From: Catillopecten margaritatus gill symbiont
Lineage (GTDB): Bacteria > Pseudomonadota > Gammaproteobacteria > PS1 > Pseudothioglobaceae
Direction of reading: 5' to 3'
Length of the DNA: 64,000 nt
Assembly: GCA_037956075.1 (NCBI GenBank)
Contig: CP138327.1
Span: forward strand, 930,001-994,000
Part shown: one piece after another, positions 3,368 through 63,190 of the stretch
Numbering within the stretch: position 1 is the stretch's first letter
Layout of the letters: every line of letters begins with the position of its first letter
Position numbers and translations under genes: made by a program
Notes under the pieces: generated by a model
Told to the model about the DNA's origin: nothing
Database searches by the model: none
The model's input: the letters and a program-made list of their open reading frames with translations, nothing else

Positions 3368-3662
3368 GGCAATACTTTTTTAAACGGCTTTACAATCACG
3401 CTTGCATACGCACCTGACTCTAAATAAGGGTCGGCATCCGCCCAAGTTTGTGCATCCGCAAGGCAATCAAATTCTGCCACCACTAGCGAGCCTGTAAAAC
3501 CCGCTTCGCCTGGTTCGTTGTTGTCAATCGCAGGATGAGGGCCTGCTAAAATCAATCGTCCTTGGTTTTTTAAAACAGTCAATCTTTCAATATGTGCAGG
3601 ACGCACTGACATTCTTTTTTCAAATGAATTTTCAATATCTTGTGCAATGATTGCATATAACA

Positions 3663-10970: not shown

Positions 10971-10997
10971 AGATTCCTCGGCTATGCTCGGAATGAC
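10971..10997 (-). repeat. 27-bp dispersed palindromic repeat, copy 1
   Basis: AGATTCCTCGGCTATGCTCG followed by GAATGAC is the reverse complement of the consensus GTCATyyCGAGyGyAGCCGA-rrrATCT. Further copies are at 11103, 25509, 29406 and 30233. The element is an imperfect palindrome around CGAG..CTCGG. Confidence 0.75.
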
Positions 10998-11081
10998 AGT
11001 ATATGAATGGCTCGGAATGACAGTATATGAATGGCTCGGAATGACAGTGTATGAGTGGTTTGGAGTAATAGCATATGGGTG
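10986..11081 (+). repeat. 24-bp tandem repeat, four copies
   Basis: Period 24: GCTCGGAATGACAGTATATGAATG is exact at 10986 and 11010, with two changes at 11034 and strongly diverged at 11058. The unit begins with the last bases of the 27-bp palindromic repeat, so the array probably grew by slippage from that element. The thiG-bioF gap (10872-11208) holds only this array, two palindromic repeats and a terminator-like hairpin. Confidence 0.85.
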
Positions 11082-11102: not shown

Positions 11103-11129
11103 GTCATCCTGAGCGTAGCCGAAGGATCT
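11103..11129 (+). repeat. 27-bp dispersed palindromic repeat, copy 2
   Basis: GTCATCCTGAGCGTAGCCGA followed by AGGATCT, on the plus strand. Same family as the copies at 10971, 25509, 29406 and 30233. Confidence 0.75.
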
Positions 11130-19861: not shown

Positions 19862-20443
19862 ATGAACATACATCAAATGCAAATCTCTTATTCAAGTCAA
19901 GAAGATAGGCTTGTTATGAGTGTTAATAGCGTAGAAGGTGAGGAAATGCGCTTATTTCTTACCCGTCGTATTGTTACGTCATTTTGGGATATTCTTAATC
20001 AAACAATTAACCACTCCTTATTGAATAAGCCTGAGCTTAATGATATGGAACCATCAATACCTACATCAATGATGGTTGACCCTGACAAAGAAGCAACCCC
20101 TCAACAAATGCAACAGCAGATGGAGCACCAAGTAGAACATCAGAATATCATTAATGAAAGTGACTATGCCACACCTTTTAATGCGGGCAATAAATTTCCA
20201 ATGGGTGAGGCACCCATCTTAATAGAAAAAATCACTATTAATGTTTATGAAAATAATAATATTGCTCTTATTTTTACCGGTACTGACGAACAAGACATCA
20301 ACTTAAATCTCAACCCACAGTTATTACATAATATCTTAGACCTACTCATTCGAGTCATGCCGAGCACTGAATGGAATATTAGTTTAATGGACAACTCTAC
20401 CCTACTAATTACTGAAAACAAGGAAAGTTTAGTGCTACACTGA
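19862..20443 (+). CDS. Unrecognised 193-aa protein after lolD
   Basis: Not recognised. No signal peptide or membrane segment. The N-terminal third is a compact alpha/beta stretch (MQISYSSQEDRLVMSVNS, then EGEEMRLFLTRRIVTSFWDILN). A middle linker is rich in Met, Gln and Glu (TPQQMQQQMEHQVEHQ). The C-terminal domain (about residues 115-193) contains EKITINVYENNNIALIF and LNPQLLHNILDLLIRVM. The stop codon TGA is itself the first three bases of a MITE terminal repeat (20441), so the C-terminus may have been cut or altered by that insertion. Eight bases after lolD, so likely cotranscribed. Confidence 0.6.
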   Translation: MNIHQMQISYSSQEDRLVMSVNSVEGEEMRLFLTRRIVTSFWDILNQTINHSLLNKPELNDMEPSIPTSMMVDPDKEATPQQMQQQMEHQVEHQNIINESDYATPFNAGNKFPMGEAPILIEKITINVYENNNIALIFTGTDEQDINLNLNPQLLHNILDLLIRVMPSTEWNISLMDNSTLLITENKESLVLH

Positions 20444-20603
20444 GACCTTTGCATAAATAGGGATGATTAGCAAAATGACAGGTTTTATTAAATTAGAAAT
20501 TTTTTAAATCCACTCCTAGCAAGGCTAAGGGTGTTTTTAAAAAATTTTCAATTTGATGAAAAGTAGCGTTTTGATGATTATTCATATTTATGCAAAGGTC
20601 TCA
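20441..20603. repeat. MITE-like repeat, family 2 (TGAGACC ends), copy A
   Basis: 163 bp with perfect 18-bp terminal inverted repeats TGAGACCTTTGCATAAAT / ATTTATGCAAAGGTCTCA. The interior is non-coding, with CTCCTAGCAAGGCTAAGG. A second element of the same size and layout is at 49988-50152, and a single decayed end is at 30288. The TGAGACC ends resemble those of IS5-group elements (from memory). It sits exactly between the stop of the 193-aa gene and the stop of panD. Confidence 0.85.
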
Positions 20604-25508: not shown

Positions 25509-25535
25509 AGATCCTTCGACTGCGCTCAGGATGAC
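25509..25535 (-). repeat. 27-bp dispersed palindromic repeat, copy 3
   Basis: AGATCCTTCGACTGCGCTCA followed by GGATGAC, reverse orientation of the family consensus. It lies 31 bases after metF and is followed by an A/G-rich stretch. The rest of the gap to 25656 has a short hairpin GGTTACAAAAAGATAACC and a direct duplication AAGATGTCATTAAGATGTCATT, nothing else. Confidence 0.75.
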
Positions 25536-28477: not shown

Positions 28478-28932
28478 AAACAACCCTAAAAACAACCCTT
28501 AACAGCGAGACTGAAACTCAGCAGTTTGCCAAAACCTTGGCACAAAATTCTAACCCCCCTTTAGTCATTTATTTGCAGGGTGATTTAGGTGTAGGAAAAA
28601 CTACTTTTGCCAGGAGTTTTATCCAGTTTTTCGGCTTTGACAAAGTCAAAAGTCCAACTTATTCTTTGGTAGAAAGTTATCAAAATGACATTATTAACAT
28701 CCACCATTTTGATTGCTATCGCCTTAGCAATCCTGAAGAATTAGAATATATCGGCATCCGTGAATACTTAAAAGGTAATCACATTCAATTAATTGAATGG
28801 CCAGATTTAGGTAAGGGAATAATTGCTCCCGCAGACTTAACCATTGAAATTAGTGGCGACAATAACATGAGAAAATTAACACTGGATGCACAGACTAACA
28901 TGGGTGAGGAGCTACTAAAATGTATCAATTAA
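28462..28932 (+). CDS. tsaE: tRNA threonylcarbamoyladenosine biosynthesis ATPase TsaE
   Basis: 156 residues. ATPase that cycles the TsaBD complex in t6A37 tRNA modification. Walker A GDLGVGKTTFARS (about residues 40-52), KSPTYSLVESYQ (about 65-76), HHFDCYRL and IQLIEWPD are all family motifs. A TTG four codons in is an alternative start that would reduce the overlap with the antiporter gene. The stop lies inside the amiC start (13-base overlap), as in the common tsaE-amiC arrangement. Confidence 0.95.
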   Translation: MAIILKTTLKTTLNSETETQQFAKTLAQNSNPPLVIYLQGDLGVGKTTFARSFIQFFGFDKVKSPTYSLVESYQNDIINIHHFDCYRLSNPEELEYIGIREYLKGNHIQLIEWPDLGKGIIAPADLTIEISGDNNMRKLTLDAQTNMGEELLKCIN

Positions 28933-30116
28933 AAGTTTTTTTACTTTTCCTATTGCTGTTTAGCAATACTCATGCAAGTGACAAAATTACCTTACACGAT
29001 TTTCGTTTTTGGACTTCACCAGAACGCACCAGAATTGTGATTGATGTTGAGGAAGATATTCAATATACAGTTACCAGCAAAGGCAATAGAATTGATTTAA
29101 ATATTCACAATGCGAAGTTTTTGCGCAAAACCTATGACAAATTATTTTATCAAGATATGCGTATCAAACGCACCAAACTCAAACGAAAATTAAAAGAAAT
29201 GCACTTGCTGTTCACGATTAGAAAAAGCTACCATCTCAAAAGCTACATGCTCAAACCCAACTCAAAATACACTCACCATCGATTGGTACTTGATATTTAT
29301 GACAAGTCCAAGCCAATTAAAAAAATCATTAAGAAACCAATTAAGAGAGTTATCAAAAAACCTACCATTCCAAGTACGCCTCCTGTTATTCCAAACACAC
29401 CTTCTGTCATCCCGAGTGCAACCGAGGGATCTCGTCAAACAAAAAAAATCATCCTAATCGATGCCGGCCATGGCGGAGAAGACCCAGGTGCAATCGGCTA
29501 TTATCACTCAAAAGAAAAGAAAATCACCTTGTCCATTGCTAAAAAACTACTAAAAAAACTTAATAAAACTCGTAACTTTAAAGCTCTATTAACTAGGCAC
29601 GGGGATTACTATGTTGGATTAACCAAGCGTATTCGTATTGCACAAGCAAACAATGCCTCTTTGTTTATCTCCATTCACGCTGATTCTGTCAAACGCAGAA
29701 GTGCAAAAGGCGCCTCAGTTTACACACTATCAGAGCGTGGTGGCTCAACTAAATTTGCCAAGCGCTTAGAGCGCTCACAAAATACAGCGGACCAATTTGG
29801 TGGCATTGAAGAAGTACTAAAAGGTGATAAATATTTAAAGAAGATACTTTGGAATTTTTCTAGAAGAGACCGTGACATTCAAAGTCAAAAACTCGGAAAA
29901 CACATCCTACAACAAATGCGCAAAATTGGCCCCTTGCATAAGAAAACTCCGCAAAAAGCAGGCTTCGTCGTTCTAAAAACCCCCGCCATTCCATCAGTCT
30001 TAGTGGAAACTGCTTTTATCTCTAACCCACAAGAAGAAAAACGCTTAGTCAACAAGAAAGAACAAGATAAAATTGCCGACGCTCTCTACCATGCCATCCT
30101 AAACTACTACAAATAA
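28920..30116 (+). CDS. amiC: N-acetylmuramoyl-L-alanine amidase (AMIN + Amidase_3)
   Basis: 398 residues, periplasmic cell-separation amidase. Signal peptide at residues 1-19 (VFLLFLLLFSNTHA). AMIN domain at about 22-120 binds peptidoglycan. A basic, proline-rich linker at about 125-175, and the Zn amidase domain at about 178-398. Ligands: histidine of IDAGHGGEDPG, glutamate of SKEKKITLS, histidine of FISIHADS; catalytic glutamate in LVETAFISNP. The linker contains a translated copy of the 27-bp palindromic repeat (VIPSATEGS). Family naming AmiC versus AmiB is not certain. Confidence 0.92.
   Translation: MYQLKVFLLFLLLFSNTHASDKITLHDFRFWTSPERTRIVIDVEEDIQYTVTSKGNRIDLNIHNAKFLRKTYDKLFYQDMRIKRTKLKRKLKEMHLLFTIRKSYHLKSYMLKPNSKYTHHRLVLDIYDKSKPIKKIIKKPIKRVIKKPTIPSTPPVIPNTPSVIPSATEGSRQTKKIILIDAGHGGEDPGAIGYYHSKEKKITLSIAKKLLKKLNKTRNFKALLTRHGDYYVGLTKRIRIAQANNASLFISIHADSVKRRSAKGASVYTLSERGGSTKFAKRLERSQNTADQFGGIEEVLKGDKYLKKILWNFSRRDRDIQSQKLGKHILQQMRKIGPLHKKTPQKAGFVVLKTPAIPSVLVETAFISNPQEEKRLVNKKEQDKIADALYHAILNYYK
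29406..29432 (+). repeat. 27-bp dispersed palindromic repeat inside amiC, copy 4
   Basis: GTCATCCCGAGTGCAACCGA followed by GGGATCT lies in frame in the amiC linker and is translated as part of SVIPSATEGSR. It matches the copies in intergenic DNA at 10971, 11103, 25509 and 30233. Confidence 0.75.
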
Positions 30117-30150
30117 CTTTACCCCCTGCTATCATTTCTATTGACAGTCA

Positions 30151-30239
30151 CTATCATTTATTAGCAATTACTGTCATTTATTAGCAATTACTGTCATTTA
30201 TTAGCAATTACTGTCATTTATTAGCAATTACTGTCATTT
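30151..30239 (+). repeat. 20-bp tandem repeat downstream of amiC
   Basis: Period 20: CTGTCATTTATTAGCAATTA occurs exactly at 30171, 30191 and 30211, with a one-base variant at 30151 and a partial unit at 30231 that runs into the 27-bp palindromic repeat. No spacers, so not a CRISPR. Confidence 0.9.
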
Positions 30240-30259
30240 CGAGCGCAGCCGAGAAATCT
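30233..30259 (+). repeat. 27-bp dispersed palindromic repeat, copy 5
   Basis: GTCATTTCGAGCGCAGCCGA followed by GAAATCT. It closes the 20-bp tandem array, and its first bases are shared with the array unit. Confidence 0.75.
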
Positions 30260-30287
30260 TATAAACTAACAATCCTTAAACTCAACA

Positions 30288-30315
30288 TGAGACCTCTACA
30301 TTGGACCTCAATATG
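30288..30315 (+). repeat. Solitary end of MITE family 2
   Basis: TGAGACCTCTACATTGGACC followed by TCAATATG resembles the left end of the element at 49988 (TGAGACCCCTGCATTGGGTA...). No partner end is visible nearby, so it is a decayed or truncated copy. Confidence 0.5.
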
Positions 30316-30340
30316 AAAAAATACAATCCCGCTCTCTTAT

Positions 30341-31051
30341 TTAAAACTTCCAACTGGCATTAAATGTAAATAATTGCTCCTTTTTAAAACCCTGTCTAAG
30401 CTTCTTCAATGGGCGTGACCACACAAAGGCTGTACTTAAGTTATTACCACTAGTTTGAAACCCAATAGCACCACCAGCAATCTCACCACAATTATCATTA
30501 TTGTCACTTTCACACTTTACTTTACCGTAATCAAGTCCAATAAAAGGCGTTATAGTTTTTAACAACTTTGGATGTAAATCCAACTTGATGGATTTTGATA
30601 AATCATTTCTAATATACCAAGCATTATTGCCAAATAAACTTAACCTATCATAGCCCCTGACTGTGCTACTACTACCTACAGTTTTTTTATCATTGTCATA
30701 TAAAATATCTCTAGTGTGTTGCAGATGAAAATTTGAATTTAGCGAATAACTCCTATCTTGAAAATAGTATAGCAATTTACTATCAACGCTAAACTTTTTA
30801 AATTCCAAAATTGCCGAATTAATCAAATCAGACTCAGCACCAACATAATCATCGTCTCTCGCCCCAAACCAATCCACACCTTGGTAATAACTATAAGTAT
30901 TGGTCAACTGCCACTGGCTTTGTAAATGAGTATGAATAAAATCAACTTGCGCTAAAGTGATTTTGTAACTGGATACATCAATCGCCCTATTGACAAAATA
31001 ATTTTTAGTATTCTTATGATAAATTGAAAGCAAGGCTTGGTATTTATTATA
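30341..31051 (-). pseudogene. 3' fragment of a TpsB/ShlB-type outer-membrane transporter, cut by IS
   Basis: The open frame runs from the IS boundary at 31051 to the stop at 30341 (about 236 codons) and has no start of its own. It codes for the C-terminal beta-barrel part of a two-partner secretion transporter: alternating amphipathic strands (TYSYYQGVDWFGARDDDYVG, YYFQDRSYSLNSNFHLQH). A VRGYDR motif is typical of the TpsB/FhaC VRGY tetrad, and the protein ends with a terminal Phe (FNASWKF) as outer-membrane proteins do. The signal, POTRA domains and first strands are missing. Its likely partner, a TpsA fragment, lies across the IS pair at 36303. Confidence 0.85.
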
Positions 31052-31060
31052 GGGTCTTAA

Positions 31061-31752
31061 CTAGTTAAGCGGCTCTTTTCTAAAATTATCAAGTAAGATT
31101 TTATACATATCTTGCTTACGATTATTAAATCTAAATTCACATTCTTTAAGATGATATTTAAACATTTTTTTATTCATTCCTTTAAATTTTACTAGTCTAT
31201 TTTTAGCATAACCCCAAAAAGATTCGATGCCGTTAATATGAGAATTTCCTCTGGCAAATTCATTCTTACCATGATGAACACGATAATGCTTTTTATAGCC
31301 AAAATCTACTAAGCCATTATATCCACGCCATCCGTCAGAATTAATAATACTATCTGTTGATGTTTTGTCTTTTATTATGCTGTGAAGGGTTATTCTATCG
31401 CACTTTTCTATAATTTGAGTATAAACCTTATCACCTCGTTTCAATAAGCCAAATACGATTATCTTGCCCCTGGCACCTCGGCCGCGTTTCCCACGGACGC
31501 GCCGAGCACCAAAAAGCTTTCATCAACTTCAATCTGCCCCACTAGTGGGGCAGATTGAAGTTGATATTGGTCTGATAATTCAAAAATTCTTATCCTTACA
31601 AGTGTCAAAATTTTATTAACAGTGTTTAAATTTAGATTGGTTAATTGTGCTATTTGAGTAGCGCTTAAATCCACTGAAAAATATTTAATAACTTCTCTAA
31701 ATTTTGCCTCTGAAAGTCTTGAACGGTTGTAATACTTATTTTTCCTTTTCAT
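31061..31752 (-). pseudogene. Frameshifted ISXO2-like transposase
   Basis: Same protein as the intact copy at 35601, but a one-base loss with neighbouring changes near 31518 (GAAAGCTTTTTGG here, GAAAGCTACTTTGG in copy 2) shifts the frame. The shift lies just after the first catalytic aspartate (IEVDES). The second half continues in another frame from about 31444. The intact copy could still act on this element in trans. Confidence 0.92.
31522..31565. repeat. 44-bp perfect palindrome inside IS copy 1
   Basis: The 22-base arm ATCAACTTCAATCTGCCCCA-CT meets its exact reverse complement without spacer (centre ACTAGT). It codes for the QLQSAPLVGQIEVD stretch before the first catalytic Asp. The same palindrome is at 35788-35831. 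Confidence 0.95.
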
Positions 31753-31950
31753 AACTAGTATTTTAAGCAATTAAAAATTGCTTAACTAGTTAAGACCCTA
31801 TAATTATATACACTTTAAGTTAAACATTATATTTATAAAGTGTTATTAATTCTCTTTTTTAATTGCTTAGGATGTTTGTATAAAAATTAGTATATAATTA
31901 TGACTATAACAAATAGTTATGTGTAAGAAATTTAGAGAAGGAGGCTAGTA

Positions 31951-32229
31951 ATGGTTTCAAAAAATCAAAAAGATAAAATTTGGGATAAAGCCAAAAGAAT
32001 ACGAGGTAAAGGCCCTGCATTATATCGACAAGACCCTTATGGAAATACAATGTACAAACCATCCCATGGTAAAAGTTCTGAAATGGGGTGGGATATAGAC
32101 CATATAAAACCTAAGAGCAAAGGTGGTTCTGATGCAACGGTTAATTTACAAGCACTAAATTCAAGTGTTAACCGTGCCAAAGGTAATTCTGGTGTTAAGA
32201 AAAGTAGGCATTCTAAAATAAATAAATAA
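31951..32229 (+). CDS. Stand-alone HNH endonuclease
   Basis: 92 residues. HNH signature in WDIDHIKPKSKGGSDA (about residues 49-64) followed by NLQALNSSVNRAKGN, the usual D-H...N...N arrangement. A preceding YGNTMYKPSHG segment is typical of small single-domain HNH proteins. The RBS GAAGGAGG is strong. No fused domain, so DNA or RNA specificity cannot be told. It is the first gene inside the left IS copy, in the cassette array, and may pair with the next ORF (17-base gap). Confidence 0.85.
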   Translation: MVSKNQKDKIWDKAKRIRGKGPALYRQDPYGNTMYKPSHGKSSEMGWDIDHIKPKSKGGSDATVNLQALNSSVNRAKGNSGVKKSRHSKINK

Positions 32230-32246
32230 AGTACGGGACAAACGGG

Positions 32247-32660
32247 ATGCAGACATTTTTTTGTAGTTTAAAGGTGGCTAATTGGTTAATTAGTGAAAAG
32301 TTTGAGTTGCAAAGCAACCCAATCACAAAATCACTAAAACCAAAAGAGATATATCTTTTTGGCAAAATCCAAGATTCAGATGAAAGCGCCATGGATGGAT
32401 TTTCTTTTCAATTAAGAATTGGGGGTATTGAAAAACAAGAACACGAAGCTTTATTGGGAAAAGAACATGTGTATGCTGGTATAAACTTACCTACCAATGA
32501 AATAGAAAAGCTAGAAAATCAGCTATTATTAGGCTCGGTAAAATTGAGTTTCAATATAAGTTTACAATTCAAACAAAATATTTCTTTATTTGATTTACCA
32601 AAAAATAAAAAATGTGCACTATCATATTTTTGCAAAAATGTATCCAGCAAAAACACATAA
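32247..32660 (+). CDS. Unrecognised cassette protein (137 aa)
   Basis: Not recognised. Soluble, no signal peptide. Predicted beta-rich middle (EIYLFGKIQDSDESAMDGFS, then FQLRIGG), with two further strand-like stretches (HVYAGINLP, VKLSFNISLQFK). The gene ends directly at attC1, the stop TAA lying inside the attC core. It therefore belongs to an integron cassette, together with the HNH gene just upstream, for which no separate attC is present. It could be the partner of the HNH nuclease; this is inference. Confidence 0.6.
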   Translation: MQTFFCSLKVANWLISEKFELQSNPITKSLKPKEIYLFGKIQDSDESAMDGFSFQLRIGGIEKQEHEALLGKEHVYAGINLPTNEIEKLENQLLLGSVKLSFNISLQFKQNISLFDLPKNKKCALSYFCKNVSSKNT

Positions 32661-32709
32661 CAATTCACTCCAGCGGACTGCTAACGCATCCGCTGAGTTC
32701 AAGCGTTAT
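32658..32709 (+). other. attC recombination site 1
   Basis: 52 bp: TAACAATTCACTCCAGCGGA at the left and TCCGCTGAGTTCAAGCGTTAT at the right form the two imperfect arms. The end motifs TAACAA and GCGTTAT are the R'' and R' core sites of integron attC sites, and the overall sequence is close to the aadA-type attC. The short loop reads CTGCTAACGCA. Confidence 0.88.
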
Positions 32710-32755
32710 GCATCAAATCGGTAATCATGTGTTAGGTAAAAAATAGAAATAGGAT

Positions 32756-33553
32756 ATGGAAACCAAAGAACACACAAAAAAGAAACACGAAGATATTGAG
32801 ATTATCTCCAACGTATCAAAAGAAGATTTTTCGAGAGAAATTTTTATTGGTGTATATGCTGTTGATATTGTTTTTACAGGTATAGTTTTTAAGCAATGTG
32901 TCTTTGATAAGTGCTATTTTAGAAATTGTAAGTTTATTCGGTGTGATTTTACTGGTACAGAGTTCAAATCGTGTAATTTAAGAGGTGCACAGTTTGATGG
33001 TTGTGATTTTATTTACTCCACATGGGAAAAAACTTTGCTTGAAGAAAATTTCTTAGATTATTGTCTTCCTAGCCAAGAAAATCTTGCTAGAGATTTAGTA
33101 CAAGAACTTAGGGTTAATTTTTCGCAAATCGGAAATTACCCTGCTGTAAATTATGCATCAACTATTGAAGTCAAGCTCACAGGTATTCATCTATACAAAT
33201 CTGCATATTCTAAAGAAGCATACTACAGATCCAAACACAAAGGCTGGGATAGAGTTTTTAAAGGTTATGAACATTTCAAATGGAAATTTCTTGATTTATT
33301 ATGGGGTAATGGCGAAAGTATTATTAAAGCAATAGTGACAATATTTTTTCTAATTTCCGTGTTATCTACGGTCAGTTTTAATGTTAATGATTCTTCGTGG
33401 ATTGATAACTTTAAAGCTTCATTTCTAGGGTTTTGGGGCGTGAAATCTAATATAGTTATTCCTGCATATATTTCTATTTGTTTGGTAATTTCAAGATTTG
33501 TGTTTTTTGGTTTATTTATGGCTATTTTAGTAAAAAGGTTGGCAAGAAGGTGA
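32756..33553 (+). CDS. Pentapeptide-repeat protein with two-helix channel-like C-terminus
   Basis: 265 residues. Residues about 40-90 are pentapeptide repeats (FKQCVFDKCYFRNCKFIRCD, then FTGTEFKSCNLRGAQFDGCD). A helical middle follows (about 95-185). The C-terminus has two membrane helices, about 193-212 (IKAIVTIFFLISVLSTVSF) and about 235-258 (ISICLVISRFVFFGLFMAIL). A re-entrant-like FKASFLGFWGV lies between them, and the end is KRLARR. This is the layout of two-helix ion-channel domains attached to pentapeptide repeats, but the TVGYG filter is absent. The stop overlaps the next gene (GTGA). Function inferred only: a membrane effector. Confidence 0.75.
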   Translation: METKEHTKKKHEDIEIISNVSKEDFSREIFIGVYAVDIVFTGIVFKQCVFDKCYFRNCKFIRCDFTGTEFKSCNLRGAQFDGCDFIYSTWEKTLLEENFLDYCLPSQENLARDLVQELRVNFSQIGNYPAVNYASTIEVKLTGIHLYKSAYSKEAYYRSKHKGWDRVFKGYEHFKWKFLDLLWGNGESIIKAIVTIFFLISVLSTVSFNVNDSSWIDNFKASFLGFWGVKSNIVIPAYISICLVISRFVFFGLFMAILVKRLARR

Positions 33554-34173
33554 GCCATGAAATTTATATTTTTGGTTCTATTACTCGTGGTGAGGTCAAC
33601 TCCTCATCTGATACTGACATCCTTGTTATTCCATTAGATGGTGAATCAAAACAGGCCTACCCTTCAAATTGGTCTTATTACACCAAGGATATACTTAATA
33701 AAATGCATAAAGATGGAAGGCTTTTCTCTTGGCACTTATATCTCGATGCAAAATGCATTTATACACCTAAAGCTACTCCATTATTGTTTGAAATGGGGAG
33801 GCCTAGCTCTTACAAGACAGCAAAAGAAGATATTGATGACCTAAGTTATTTATTAAATCAGTCAATGGAATCTCTACAAAATAATACATTTAATCAAATT
33901 TACGAAATTGGAATTGTTCATACCTGTTTGCGCGATATTGCTATGTCAGCATCGTGGTGGTTATTCGAACGCCCATGTTTTTCTATTTATGCGCCATATC
34001 AAATAGGAATTCCATTGCCTATTAATAAAGAAACTTATAGAAAGTTAATATCTGCAAGGCATAATTCAACTCGTGGAATTACCAGTAATTTTGATTGGAA
34101 ACTGGTAGTTGAGGAGTTATTAACTTCATCAATATGTAAGTGGGTGTCGGATGTCAAAAGGGTGTGTGTATGA
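33550..34173 (+). CDS. Minimal nucleotidyltransferase with helical C-terminal domain
   Basis: 207 residues from the GTG at 33550, which overlaps the pentapeptide gene stop by four bases; an ATG 24 codons upstream would lie deep in that gene. The active-site motif IFGSITRGEVNSSSDTDILVI (in part GSxxxGx5SDTD, about residues 8-24) is that of the DNA polymerase beta superfamily (MNT/KNTase type). A third acidic residue may be in WHLYLDAKC. The C-terminal half (about 100-205) is helical, HEPN/KNTase-C-like. Such proteins modify RNases or small molecules as antitoxins or resistance enzymes. Coupled to both neighbours. Confidence 0.75.
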   Translation: MSHEIYIFGSITRGEVNSSSDTDILVIPLDGESKQAYPSNWSYYTKDILNKMHKDGRLFSWHLYLDAKCIYTPKATPLLFEMGRPSSYKTAKEDIDDLSYLLNQSMESLQNNTFNQIYEIGIVHTCLRDIAMSASWWLFERPCFSIYAPYQIGIPLPINKETYRKLISARHNSTRGITSNFDWKLVVEELLTSSICKWVSDVKRVCV

Positions 34174-34481
34174 ACTCATTTGTTAGGAAAGTAGAGGCTG
34201 AAAGAAGTATTCTTACCGAGGTAAATATATATACAAAAGGCAAGGGGCAACTTACAGGGCTTTCTAGTTCTGCAATTGATAACTGGTGTTCATTTCATAA
34301 TGTAGAATTGAATGGTGAAGTATCAAATACACTCCGCAATCTTTCTGATTTATGCAATAGCCTTTCAGATAGAAGTAACGAAAGTTTTGTAAATATTCCG
34401 ATAGAAAGGATATATAAAATTAAAAAAGAGGTTTTGATTTTAATTGATGGTTTAACTGCTCATTTTCATAAAAATGCATAA
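34170..34481 (+). CDS. Small unrecognised protein coupled to the nucleotidyltransferase
   Basis: 103 residues from the ATG at 34170, which overlaps the nucleotidyltransferase stop by four bases (ATGA). No signal peptide or membrane helix. Mostly helical by composition, with LSSSAIDNWCSFHNVE in the middle and IYKIKKEVLILIDGLTAHFH at the end. The stop codon falls in the attC2 core (TAACAA), which closes a three-gene cassette. Function unknown; it may be a regulator or partner of the nucleotidyltransferase. Confidence 0.65.
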   Translation: MNSFVRKVEAERSILTEVNIYTKGKGQLTGLSSSAIDNWCSFHNVELNGEVSNTLRNLSDLCNSLSDRSNESFVNIPIERIYKIKKEVLILIDGLTAHFHKNA

Positions 34482-34570
34482 CAATAGCTTCCAGCAGACT
34501 ACTATAAGCGTCATTTTTTTTGCGGAGCAAAAAAACTGCCCCTTATGGTAGCCGCTGAAGCTGGCGTTAG
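34479..34570 (+). other. attC recombination site 2
   Basis: 92 bp from TAACAATAGCTTCCAGC to GCTGAAGCTGGCGTTAG. The arms pair over AGCTTCCAGC / GCTGAAGCT and ACTATAAG / CTTATGGTAG. A long T-run/A-run hairpin (TTTTTTTTGCGGAGCAAAAAAA) makes the loop. Seven differences from attC3. Confidence 0.9.
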
Positions 34571-34604
34571 AATTTATAAGGTTAGAATTTACAAGGAATA
34601 TAAT

Positions 34605-35234
34605 GTGCAAACTGAAGATGTAATAAAATTAGCAGAAAATCTAATTGAAATTTCTGTCTCTATTGGTGAAAAGGACTATGTTAAGTTTAGAGGGATATAT
34701 GCTAGGGTTTGTGATTTTCTTGCTAAATTTGCAGGAGCTAAAAGTCCTTTCTTAACTCAAATATCTAATTTGCCACGTGATAAAGCTAGCGCAGGAGAAT
34801 ATCTCGCTGAAATATTGCGTTCATTTATAGCTCATTTACAGGATGGGCTTGTTGGTGGGCTTAGTCCTCGGAGACAAGCAGAAATAGACGTTACTTCTGA
34901 TTTTCTTGAACAAGCACAAGGGTTGCTGTCTTCCAAAAAAGTCCATCCTGCAGCACCTGCAGTATTAATTGGTGCAGCACTTGAGGAATTTCTTAGAAAT
35001 TGGGTAGAAGACAGTGGGTTGTCCTTAGGTGGAAAAAAGCCTAGCCTTGATTCCTATGCAACAACTTTAAGGTCAGAAGAATTAATTACAAAACAAGACA
35101 TGAAAGATATTGCTTCTTGGGGTGGCACTAGAAATCACGCTGCACATGGGGAATGGGAAGCGTTGGGGGATTCTCCAAGAATTAGATTAATGTTAGAAGG
35201 TGTTAACTTATTTATGAGAAGGTATGGGGAGTAA
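34605..35234 (+). CDS. HEPN-like cassette protein (209 aa)
   Basis: Start chosen at the GTG at 34605, seven bases after the RBS AAGGA; the longer frame from 34545 would begin inside attC2. Helical protein with no signal peptide. The C-terminal half reads APAVLIGAALEEFLRNWVED (about residues 120-140), later GGTRNHAAHGEWE (about 180-192). The Rx4H motif (RNHAAH), preceded by a long helix with LIGAALEEFLR, is typical of HEPN-fold RNases and abortive-infection proteins. The N-terminal half is not recognised. Single-gene cassette between attC2 and attC3. Confidence 0.65.
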   Translation: MQTEDVIKLAENLIEISVSIGEKDYVKFRGIYARVCDFLAKFAGAKSPFLTQISNLPRDKASAGEYLAEILRSFIAHLQDGLVGGLSPRRQAEIDVTSDFLEQAQGLLSSKKVHPAAPAVLIGAALEEFLRNWVEDSGLSLGGKKPSLDSYATTLRSEELITKQDMKDIASWGGTRNHAAHGEWEALGDSPRIRLMLEGVNLFMRRYGE

Positions 35235-35239
35235 AATTC

Positions 35240-35331
35240 TAACAATAGCTTCCAGCGGACTACCATAAGCGTCATTTTTTTTGCGAAGCAAAAAAACCGC
35301 CCCTTATGGTAGTTGCTGAAGCTGGCGTTAT
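35240..35331 (+). other. attC recombination site 3
   Basis: 92 bp, TAACAATAGCTTCCAGCGGA to GTTGCTGAAGCTGGCGTTAT. Same loop and arms as attC2, with compensating changes such as CCATAAG / CTTATGG. The close match of attC2 and attC3 means both came from one integron platform. Confidence 0.9.
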
Positions 35332-35421
35332 GATTTAAGTGCATTTGAAGCTCTCCGCTTGGAGTAGCTTATGCTGTATAATTTAAGGTGCAATCAAAAA
35401 CCTCTTTAGGATGTATAGAAT

Positions 35422-35571
35422 ATGATTAAAAATCAATCTCTTCCAGTAATAACTGAAATCCCAAGTGAAGAACAAGAGGTATTTGATAAATTAATCAAAT
35501 CATGTCGAAGTAAGTATATTCGCACATCTCAAGAAATTGTAGATAAAATATTTAGGGTCTTAACTAGTTAA
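35422..35571 (+). pseudogene. 5' fragment of a cassette gene cut by IS copy 2
   Basis: ATG at 35422 after attC3. The frame reads MIKNQSLPVITEIPSEEQEV, then FDKLIKSCRSKYIRTSQEIV, and enters the IS after 44 codons, ending at a TAA inside the IS terminal repeat. The truncated product is not recognised; the charged helical opening is not diagnostic. No attC can follow it because the IS interrupts the cassette. Confidence 0.6.
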
Positions 35572-35600
35572 GCAATTTTTAATTGCTTAAAATACTAGCT

Positions 35601-36293
35601 ATGAAAAGGAAAAATAAGTATTACAATCGTTCAAGACTTTCAGAGGCAAAATTTAGAGAAGTTATTAAATATTTTTCAGTGGATTTAAGCGCTACTCAAA
35701 TAGCACAATTAACCAATCTAAATTTAAACACTGTTAATAAAATTTTGACACTTGTAAGGATAAGAATTTTTGAATTATCAGACCAATATCAACTTCAATC
35801 TGCCCCACTAGTGGGGCAGATTGAAGTTGATGAAAGCTACTTTGGTGCTCGATGCGTCCGTGGGAAACGCGGCCGAGGTGCCAGGGGCAAGATAATCGTA
35901 TTTGGCTTATTGAAACGAGGTGATAAGGTTTATACTCAAATTATAGAAAAGTGCGATAGAATAACCCTTCACAGCATAATAAAAGACAAAACATCAACAG
36001 ATAGTATTATTAATTCTGACGGATGGCGTGGATATAATGGCTTAGTAGATTTTGGCTATAAAAAGCATTATCGTGTTCATCATGGTAAGAATAAATTTGC
36101 CAGAGGAAATTCTCATATTAACGGCATCGAATCTTTTTGGGGTTATGCTAAAATTAGGCTAGTAAAATTTAAAGGAATGAATAAAAAAATGTTTAAATAT
36201 CATCTTAAAGAATGTGAATTTAGATTTAATAATCGTAAGCAAGATATGTATAAAATCTTACTTGATAATTTTAGAAAAGAGCCGCTTAACTAG
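35601..36293 (+). CDS. ISXO2-like (IS1595 family) transposase
   Basis: 230 residues from the ATG at 35601 (an in-frame TTG is six codons upstream). An N-terminal helix-turn-helix (LSATQIAQLTNLNLNTVNKI, about residues 27-46) is followed by the ISXO2-like DDE domain. First Asp in GQIEVDESYFG (about residue 81), second in IINSDGWRGYNG (about 138), and HINGIESFWGYAK near the C-terminus for the third position. No zinc-ribbon domain is seen at the N-terminus. It is the only intact transposase of this type in the window. Confidence 0.93.
   Translation: MKRKNKYYNRSRLSEAKFREVIKYFSVDLSATQIAQLTNLNLNTVNKILTLVRIRIFELSDQYQLQSAPLVGQIEVDESYFGARCVRGKRGRGARGKIIVFGLLKRGDKVYTQIIEKCDRITLHSIIKDKTSTDSIINSDGWRGYNGLVDFGYKKHYRVHHGKNKFARGNSHINGIESFWGYAKIRLVKFKGMNKKMFKYHLKECEFRFNNRKQDMYKILLDNFRKEPLN
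35788..35831. repeat. 44-bp perfect palindrome inside IS copy 2
   Basis: Identical to the palindrome at 31522-31565: 22-base arms meeting at ACTAGT, in the coding sequence of the transposase before the first catalytic Asp. In mRNA it can fold into a 20-bp hairpin. Confidence 0.95.
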
Positions 36294-36302
36294 TTAAGAC
36301 CC

Positions 36303-37223
36303 AAGATTATTATTGACATCTACATCGTTACTTGAGGTGATTTGAATATCACCCTTTGCACTTATTTTTTGTAAAGATAGGGTGCCATTATTGTTGATAA
36401 TAATATCCCCGGTAGAGGCTAGCATCTCAGGTGGAAGATTAACACCCAGCCCTTTATCGGTGCCTACGAGAGTAATTCGATTAGCATACATGCCGCCCAA
36501 ATTAGAAGTGTCAAGCAATAAATTTTGAGCTTGCTCTGAATGGCGTGATTGGGTAATATCGCCCTCTTTGTTGATTGTATTTTGACCTAGTTTAATATTG
36601 AGGTTCTTGGCATTAATACTGGCATTAAGTTGTAGGTAATGGCTGTAAATATTGGTGCTATCTTGATTCCTTGCATTTAAACCTGTGCCTTCAATTAAAA
36701 TATCACCGCCATTAACAGTGAGACCATTAAATTGGTTATTGTTAAAGATTGGCTTGCCTGTGGTTAGGGTAATGTTGTTAGTGTTAATAAAGCCAGCGCC
36801 ATTAATAGTTAAGCCATTAGGGTTGGCAATAATTAAATCTGCTTTTTGACCTGCTATCTCGGTCCATCCTTTTAAACTGGAGCGGTTGGTACTGGATACT
36901 TCGTTAAGAATAACAGTTGCGTTATTCGTGAGGTTTTTATTGCCAAAAATAATACCGCCAAGTTGAGTATCAACATTGGTTTGTTTTGAGTTGTTAAGAA
37001 TCAGCCCTTCACTGCCGACATTGTAATGAATAAATTTGTTGTGCGATAATCCATCGCTATTAGGATTGGCAATATTAACGATAGGAACATTATTACGAGC
37101 TTTGTCTAATGCGGTGTTGGTTGAACCATCTGTTTGAAGTGGTACGCCATAAGCTACTAAGGGTATAAATGCCAAATATGCAGCAAAATAGATTAGGAAT
37201 ATTTTTTTAAAAAATGCTGGCAA
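36303..37223 (-). pseudogene. 5' fragment of a TpsA (FhaB/CdiA-like) exoprotein, cut by IS
   Basis: 307 codons from the ATG at 37223 to the IS boundary; the frame ends a few codons inside the IS. Signal peptide at residues about 1-27 (KKIFLIYFAAYLAFIPLVAYG). Then the two-partner-secretion domain: IVNIANPNSDGLSHNKF, GWTEIAGQKADLIIANPNGL with the NPNG motif, and beta-helix repeats (NITLTTGKPI, GGDILIEGTGL). The repeat region and C-terminus of the exoprotein are missing. Its probable transporter, also truncated, lies beyond the second IS copy at 30341. Confidence 0.9.
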
Positions 37224-37255
37224 CTTTAAAGGTAGTCTGGGTAAAGATATGATAA

Positions 37256-37316
37256 TACCCTAATCCAAAAGCAGGAATCACAAACCTGGCGCTATCTCTA
37301 CTTTTGGATTGGGGTA
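37256..37316. repeat. MITE family 1, miniature copy
   Basis: TACCCTAATCCAAAA (37256-37270) and TTTTGGATTGGGGTA (37302-37316) are the terminal repeats of family 1 with only 31 bases between them. The interior does not match the 200-bp copies, so it is an internally deleted or solo-end form. Confidence 0.65.
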
Positions 37317-37373
37317 ATGCTCTTTTTTATGCTGTGTATTTGTTAATATCAAAATTACAATATCGCTATCTTA

Positions 37374-37706
37374 TTATTTTTTATCTGGTACATTATTCTC
37401 TTTTGGAGGTTCATAATTTGGGTCGTTGGGGTTCATAAAAATGAAGCCATAACCACCCTCAGTATCAATTTCGTCAAAATCTACGACGGTGCCTTCTAAC
37501 AAATCCTTTTGTGCATAGGCGATAACATATTCAATGCCGTTAGATTCTAAATGAATATCGCCGTCTGAAAATTCATCAAAACCCATTAGATATTGAAAAC
37601 CTTCATCGGTTTTATCGATGGCGAAACGCATTTGTAAACCTTGTGTGTCTGGGTTTTGAGTGGATAGTCCGATTTCTTCGGCAGCACGCTTAGTAATTGT
37701 AATCAT
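37374..37706 (-). CDS. dsrR: DsrR, IscA/HesB-fold accessory protein
   Basis: 110 residues with the A-type scaffold fold (MITITKRAAEEIG, LQMRFAIDKTDEGFQYLMGF, GIEYVIAYAQKDLLEGTVVD) but without any cysteine, as reported for DsrR, which affects dsr expression or maturation rather than carrying FeS clusters. Ends with a polar tail (NYEPPKENNVPDKK). The ATG overlaps the dsrN stop by four bases, and it is the last gene of the dsr operon. Confidence 0.88.
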   Translation of the reverse strand: MITITKRAAEEIGLSTQNPDTQGLQMRFAIDKTDEGFQYLMGFDEFSDGDIHLESNGIEYVIAYAQKDLLEGTVVDFDEIDTEGGYGFIFMNPNDPNYEPPKENNVPDKK

Positions 37707-62440: not shown

Positions 62441-62450
62441 ATTCACACCA

Positions 62451-62481
62451 TTTTACACCCACGCCCGGCGTGGGTGTAAAA
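62451..62481. repeat. REP palindrome flanking the RAYT gene, copy 1
   Basis: 31 bp: TTTTACACCCACGCC, centre C, then its exact reverse complement. The copy at 63160 is the reverse complement of this one (centre G). It also lies as a terminator-like hairpin after the TusE-like gene. Confidence 0.93.
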
Positions 62482-62485
62482 TGAC

Positions 62486-63160
62486 TTAAAACTCAAAGTC
62501 ATCTGAAGTTAAGAATACATGCTTATTTTCGGCAAAATGAATAGAGGAATTTTTAGTATCTACCTTATATTGCTCTAGAGATCCAGCTTCGTTGATAATG
62601 CTATCAATTGCCTCTTTATCGCAAATATATTCCCCTAACTCTGTACCTAAATATTCAAAAATACTGGATTTTACCAATTGCTCTTTTGGGTTAATTTCAT
62701 GATGTTTGTAATTTAGATTGACATAGCTTGACACACTAGGCAATGCATAATCGCCACTAATATGAGTCGCTTTAAACCTACCTTGAAATAAAGCCCCTGT
62801 TCTTTCGTGTTTTTGATTGAACAACTTAACATAAGAACTTCCGAGCCTTTGCATAAACTTTGAAATACCATCATCGGACTGCTGCTGTAGTAATAAATGA
62901 AAATGATTGGGTAGCAAACAATAAGCAACAATCTTAACTAGCTGCGTTTGATTTTCCAGATTTTTATTTTGTCTTTTCTCTCTCCTGCACATACGAAACG
63001 CATTGCTGGTGTTGGTATTATTCAAATCTTGTAAACGGTTAAAGAAAAAGTATAATTCATCTTTATTGGTAAAAATAGTGCGTTTATCCACACCACGATT
63101 AAAAACATGATAATACTCACCATTTACTAATTGTATCTTTCTGATCGCCATAATACGCAT
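62486..63160 (-). CDS. REP-associated tyrosine transposase (RAYT, Y1-type)
   Basis: 224 residues from the ATG at 63160; a longer frame would run into the REP. Y1/HUH transposase: GEYYHVFNRGVDKRTIF (about residues 14-30), the HUH motif LLPNHFHLLLQ (about 95), and the catalytic Tyr region SSYVKLFNQKHERTGALFQG (about 120-140). Acidic tail. Flanked by two inverted REP palindromes at 62451 and 63160, so it is the mobiliser or domesticated handler of these REPs. Confidence 0.92.
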   Translation of the reverse strand: MRIMAIRKIQLVNGEYYHVFNRGVDKRTIFTNKDELYFFFNRLQDLNNTNTSNAFRMCRREKRQNKNLENQTQLVKIVAYCLLPNHFHLLLQQQSDDGISKFMQRLGSSYVKLFNQKHERTGALFQGRFKATHISGDYALPSVSSYVNLNYKHHEINPKEQLVKSSIFEYLGTELGEYICDKEAIDSIINEAGSLEQYKVDTKNSSIHFAENKHVFLTSDDFEF

Positions 63161-63190
63161 TTTACACCCACGCCGGGCGTGGGTGTAAAA
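63160..63190. repeat. REP palindrome flanking the RAYT gene, copy 2
   Basis: 31 bp: TTTTACACCCACGCC, centre G, exact reverse complement. It lies nine bases after the alaS stop (minus strand), where it could end alaS transcription, and overlaps the RAYT start codon. Confidence 0.93.

Follow-up and report, generated by a model that had tools for sequence, protein, structure and literature searches.

The window, a stretch of 64,000 nucleotides from the Catillopecten margaritatus gill symbiont, covers bases 930001-994000 of a genome that consists of a single contig of 1,542,691 bases. An amiC-type gene was identified in it, carrying in frame a copy of a short REP-like repeat, and further copies of the family and tandem arrays lie on either side of the gene:

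10971-10997, - strand, intergenic copy
10986..11081, - strand, tandem array with a 24-bp unit of spacer and first repeat half, lying to the tag side of the copy at 10971
11103-11129, + strand, intergenic copy of the CTGAG/CGAAGG stem subtype
25509-25535, - strand, intergenic copy of the CTGAG/CGAAGG stem subtype
28920..30116, + strand, amiC-type N-acetylmuramoyl-L-alanine amidase ORF (398 codons), the insertion carrier
29364-29384 and 29385-29405, + strand, two degenerate 21-bp units similar to spacer and first repeat half together, coding for TIPSTPP VIPNTPS
29406-29432, + strand, REP-like repeat in frame in amiC, coding for VIPSATEGS, sequence GTCATCCCGAGTGCAACCGAGGGATCT
30139..30239, + strand, array of tandem 20-bp units to the tag side of the copy at 30233, every unit ending in the first bases of the repeat
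30233-30259, + strand, intergenic copy downstream of amiC

The position and translation of the in-frame copy were confirmed as given by the first-pass annotation. Its hairpin has the stem ATCCC/GGGAT, the inner pairs G-C and T-A and a GCA loop, and is preceded by T, which gives a TGTC tag. When GTCATCCCGAGTGCAACCGAGGGATCT was searched in the window with up to three mismatches, one match was obtained against 0.00 expected from 100 dinucleotide shuffles, and the copy is an exact fit to the genome-wide repeat pattern (GTCATNNCGAGNGNANCCGAGNNATC). The same 27-bp repeat had been reported from four intergenic places; four copies of the family do exist there, but their sequences are not identical, each differing from the amiC copy at 5 or 6 of the 27 positions, and many of these mismatches are paired stem changes.

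The AmiC linker and the extent of the insert

The Amidase_3 domain of AmiC was called by Pfam at residues 178-394 (E 7.6e-48), and the N-terminal part could be aligned with that of AmiC-type relatives. The linker had been described as lying between the AMIN and amidase domains; the amidase side of this description held, whereas AMIN was not called by Pfam in AmiC of this genome and reached only a sub-threshold match (E 0.12) in that of the nearest relative. The closest named relative found with AmiC was Candidatus Thiodubiliella endoseptemdiera (Ca. Thiodubiliella). Since dN against Ca. Thiodubiliella was low relative to dS in both protein parts (amidase part, dN 0.10 and dS 1.36; N-terminal part, dN 0.16 and dS 1.17; values rough, with dS near saturation), amiC is under purifying selection. 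The structure prediction of AmiC was uninformative (mean pLDDT 42.8).

The linker, measured from the RLVLDI-like motif to DAGHGG, comprised 54 residues here against 22-34 in 13 family relatives (14 of their AmiC proteins were compared, one being left unmeasured for misfit of the motif), and the shortest, with 22 residues, was that of the nearest relative. The stretch 29364-29432 accounts for 69 bp or 23 codons in an open frame with no stops, and without these codons the linker would have 31 residues, which falls within the range of the relatives. The earlier statement that the linker was lengthened with its frame intact was thus correct. The linker is P/S/T/K-rich, and linkers of this kind differ among relatives in both length and sequence. 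Conservation of the repeat-encoded peptide in AmiC of organisms lacking the repeat family, which the first-pass annotation had named as counter-evidence, was not observed, the peptide being absent from all 14 family-relative AmiC proteins. The repeat pattern itself, allowing two mismatches, was found in none of the other members of the taxonomic family (82 genomes), many of which are drafts from which repeats may be lost in assembly. Because the linkers of relatives are shorter and the pattern is absent from these genomes, the segment is best read from the sequence comparison as a lineage-specific in-frame insertion into the linker.

The insert is bigger than the 27 bp claimed before. In a blastn comparison of the window with the syntenic Ca. 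Thiodubiliella region the alignment was interrupted at 29360 and 29443, and both 21-bp units fall within the stretch absent from Ca. Thiodubiliella, which points to an insert of about 69-82 bp composed of the repeat and a degenerate 21-bp array. In the tandem test, the unit adjoining the repeat (21 bases ending inside the repeat, compared with the preceding 21) was 14/21 identical (p 0.0055), with transitions at 7/7 differences. The outer unit was weak (11/21 identical), so part of the stretch upstream of the repeat could be ordinary P/S/T-rich linker. The target site of the insertion was unreadable, the nearest relative being too diverged at the linker.

Downstream of amiC, some 7.2 kb that separate the gene from the following syntenic block (30120-37377) are missing in Ca. 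Thiodubiliella, where the blocks are almost adjacent; within this stretch a perfect 44-bp palindrome occurs at 31522 and again at 35788, and two copies of a 98-bp repeat lie at 34479 and 35240. A 162-bp dispersed repeat is present once in the window, at 20442-20602, with 92-94% identity, and three times within 11 kb of Ca. Thiodubiliella (228-389, 1346-1507 and 3391-3550 of that stretch); it is about 76% like its own reverse complement and probably a MITE. As for the gene itself, 10/11 same-genus genomes gave no AmiC match at E <= 0.001, which suggests gene loss in most relatives.

Copies of the repeat and their hairpin

With up to two mismatches, the pattern gave 53 matches in the whole genome against 0 for the reversed-pattern control. 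A pattern for the second subtype gave 15 matches, at sites partly shared with those of the first. A degenerate-codon search for the encoded peptide pattern returned 32 places, all of them already among the repeat-pattern matches. An initial loose count of 85 copies included chance matches (5.8 expected per 166 kb), so a strict definition was adopted, which gave 71 copies in 166 kb and 89 copies in 203 kb after 13 stretches had been added; the 203 kb were gathered around known matches, and the count of 89 leaves out diverged copies elsewhere in the genome. The base preceding GTC was T in 88/89 strict copies and C in the remaining one. Among pairs of neighbouring copies, 27 were head-to-head, 6 tail-to-tail and 3 head-to-tail; the spacer measured 10-16 nt in all but two of the head-to-head pairs (25/27).

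The copies could be grouped into 47 clusters, 45 of which lie between ORFs (23 convergent, 19 unidirectional and 3 divergent). Only two clusters were inside ORFs of at least 200 residues, one in amiC and the other in a moaE ORF. In the latter, the copy at 458884 sits in an ORF extension upstream of the MoaE domain, outside the domain and probably outside the protein. The copy at 163013 falls in a 131-residue ORF with no Pfam match, and two further copies in a 122-residue ORF made largely of repeat; neither ORF was taken as a real gene. Matches within ORFs at 375341, 991906 and 1406903 were loose matches only and were dropped. AmiC is therefore the sole demonstrable protein holding a copy among the 89 strict ones. 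The earlier idea that the repeat moves into genes is consistent with the insertion in amiC, yet it was overstated for a family with one such copy in 89. That the repeat has moved at all is suggested by its presence here and absence in the other species. In addition, a unit of about 2385 bp, containing one repeat copy and a 219-residue ORF of peroxiredoxin-like size, was observed three times in tandem at 797252-805328 of the contig (C1).

For the structure, 61 copies (38 distinct) differing from the consensus at no more than 7 positions were aligned, copies with 8 mismatches being left out. The hairpin has an outer stem of 5 bp, an internal loop (GA/CGA), an inner stem of 2 bp and a GNA/GNNA loop, with a CT(T) tail (consensus CTT), and 96.2% of its cells were paired in the 61 copies. 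Two-sided changes occurred in 5/7 stem pairs. The covariation score was 0.435, which 0/500 shuffles reached, versus 0.262 (sd 0.019), and six slid versions of the hairpin all scored far lower. The first two stem pairs were A-T (34/38 distinct copies) and T-A (34/38). In the DNA energy model a lone 27-mer folded weakly (z -0.31) and a 66-nt dimer very strongly (z -14.8).

The loops of the 89 strict copies were GNA in 60, GNNA in 23 and of other kinds in 6. In RNA, the GNRA loop rule places a purine in the third position; 0/23 GNNA loops had one. The dominance of GNA and GNNA loops, together with this misfit to the RNA rule, gives a hint, though not a proof, that it is the DNA hairpin which is kept. 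Both loop types, with at least two G-C pairs, were reported as very stable DNA mini-hairpins in the available text of PMC4686876.

Outside this genome, a similar pattern was present in 21/369 genomes of a class sample, this genome included, mostly with one or two matches and often with a different hairpin subtype. Seven stretches of viral contigs matched the wider repeat family, and the 66-bp dimer had no match among plasmids. Rfam, at gathering score, gave two tRNAs in the window and nothing on the repeat. The wider family is patchy, and the copy load of this genome is the highest in the sampled genomes. Searches of the open PubMed Central text with the repeat and peptide strings returned nothing relevant, which does not establish absence in print.

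One-sided arrays and transposases

Many copies carry on their tag side tandem units in which a spacer is joined to GTCATYCYGAG and the second repeat half is missing. Such arrays were detected at p < 0.01 in 27 of the 61 copies tested, against about 0.6 expected. In the 166-kb set, first halves standing alone on the strand of a copy and no more than 200 nt away from it numbered 57 upstream and 0 downstream, and isolated second halves 1 and 1; the 203-kb set was slightly less clean, with 61 and 2 first halves and 2 and 2 second halves. The 11-mer GTCATYCYGAG occurs 101 times in the genome, and its reversed form not once. In another gammaproteobacterium a related repeat is present as five tandem copies with a period of 44 (1486-1687 of the stretch); these are whole repeats, whereas the arrays described here are half-elements. 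For half or partial REPs with slippage, only unrelated papers were found in the open PubMed Central text, and absence in print is not established by this.

Twelve Y1 transposase matches were identified in the genome. No repeat copies were present around them in the stretches examined, and the three Y1 loci tested for repeats carry other inverted repeats, one of them containing GGGGTCAG, which fits GGGGWSAS, the motif given for TIR-associated tyrosine transposases (PMC3733652, in part). Y1/RAYT transposases were rejected as partner of the repeat since none was seen beside it in these stretches, and no mobilising enzyme linked to the repeat was found. Within the window, at 62449-63190, a Y1 gene (match at 62717-62941) is flanked on both sides by another palindrome, of 33 bp, whose two copies are 97% alike.

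Palindromes of 20-40 bp with compensatory changes, an unpaired tag with TGTC and CCTC variants (TGTC in this case), A-T and T-A as the first stem pairs, a mostly head-to-head dimer arrangement, intergenic position and no adjacent transposase are shared by this repeat and the CGTC-tagged super-family of REPs, and so is in-frame insertion into a gene, which the available text of PMC3733652 already describes as possibly neutral owing to a location in flexible linkers. The families CGTC-1 to CGTC-4, which include Neisseria dRS3 and Rickettsia RPE-4 and RPE-6 (PMC3733652, in part), have a stem of 8-9 bp, a loop of 4-5 nt and mostly a CCA tail, and the repeat departs from them in all three. As far as that source is available, the tag places the repeat in the super-family, while its stem, loop and tail set it apart from families 1-4. 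For CGTC-tagged REPs, tandem reiteration of units with flanking DNA is described (PMC3733652, in part), whereas the arrays here hold the first half only, and one-sided half-element arrays are not mentioned in the available part of that paper. The repeat also resembles the Rickettsia palindromic elements (RPE), likewise translated in frame at tolerant positions of conserved proteins; it differs in sequence, and in having one in-gene copy where Rickettsia conorii has many (PMC3733652, in part). GTAG REPs or BIMEs with RAYT (TnpA-REP) show comparable tagged hairpins, dimers and tandem clusters with flanking DNA, but the tag here is TGTC and no Y1 gene was seen adjoining the repeat.

Origin of the insert and of the arrays

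A single TGTC/CGTC-tagged REP-like element was very probably inserted into the amiC linker in this lineage, and would have survived because it landed in an open frame, past the N-terminal part and ahead of the catalytic amidase domain. The added residues would then be a tolerated flexible extension with no special role. Counting against this reading are the weak outer unit, the weak fold of a single repeat and the failure to find an enzyme linked to the repeat. The variability of P/S/T/K-rich linkers among relatives could also be taken to mean that the match arose by chance or convergence within a linker of low complexity, with no repeat inserted; this origin was rejected on the shuffle expectation of 0.00 and the 0 reversed-pattern matches, and with tag, stem pairs and GNA loop all present in an exact fit to the pattern we regard it as extremely improbable. 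It is very improbable as well that the segment is ancestral and was lost in the relatives: the nearest relative does have the shortest linker, but loss would be required in 13/13 measured relatives, along with that of a repeat family absent from 82/82 family genomes. An adaptive insert, kept because the longer linker or the in-gene hairpin alters AmiC activity or amiC expression, would agree with amiC holding the sole copy inside a demonstrable protein, and with the inner stem pair of that copy, where the common C-G has been changed on both sides to T-A with pairing kept (2 such rows in 38). The intergenic copy at 1108520 shares this T-A pair, so the change may be inherited with a subtype, and relatives function with linkers of 22-34 residues; we consider adaptation very unlikely.

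Under the preferred reading, insertion of a tolerated element, the repeat may spread as a folded single strand through an enzyme acting in trans, and its tag side may have grown by tandem duplication of spacer, tag and first arm, which would yield the 21-bp units. The simplest mechanism for the arrays would be stalling of a polymerase at the hairpin followed by backward slippage, but slippage alone leaves growth on the tag side only unexplained. The one-sidedness (57 versus 0; 61 versus 2) would be better explained if an HUH (Y1-type) enzyme nicked the TGTC tag again and again, with repair following; the genome has its 12 Y1 matches, and GTAG REPs are cut at the tag by such enzymes (PMC3733652, in part). 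Against it stand the Y1 loci, with other inverted repeats at the three tested and no copy of this one nearby, and the CGTC repeats, for which the available text of PMC3733652 reports no linked transposase. Nicking instead of slippage is accordingly possible, though we would not favour it.

What is new, as far as the accessible part of PMC3733652 allows comparison, is the subtype of stem-loop, together with half-element arrays that are one-sided, in-frame REPs in genes being known already. We propose tentatively that a TGTC REP subtype is kept for the folding of single-stranded DNA, with a GNA/GNNA mini-hairpin as its head, and that an end-specific process at the tag keeps making first-half arrays, which could seed tandem-repeat protein sequence as in the AmiC linker. 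Taken alone, amiC is one more example of REP insertion within a gene. The wider pattern is more useful: with at least 89 copies of one REP subtype, absent from 82 family relatives and showing clear covariation and one-sided arrays of half-elements, this genome offers a natural setting in which to study the spread and growth of CGTC/TGTC REPs, for which no transposase is known, and the conversion of non-coding repeats into protein linkers.
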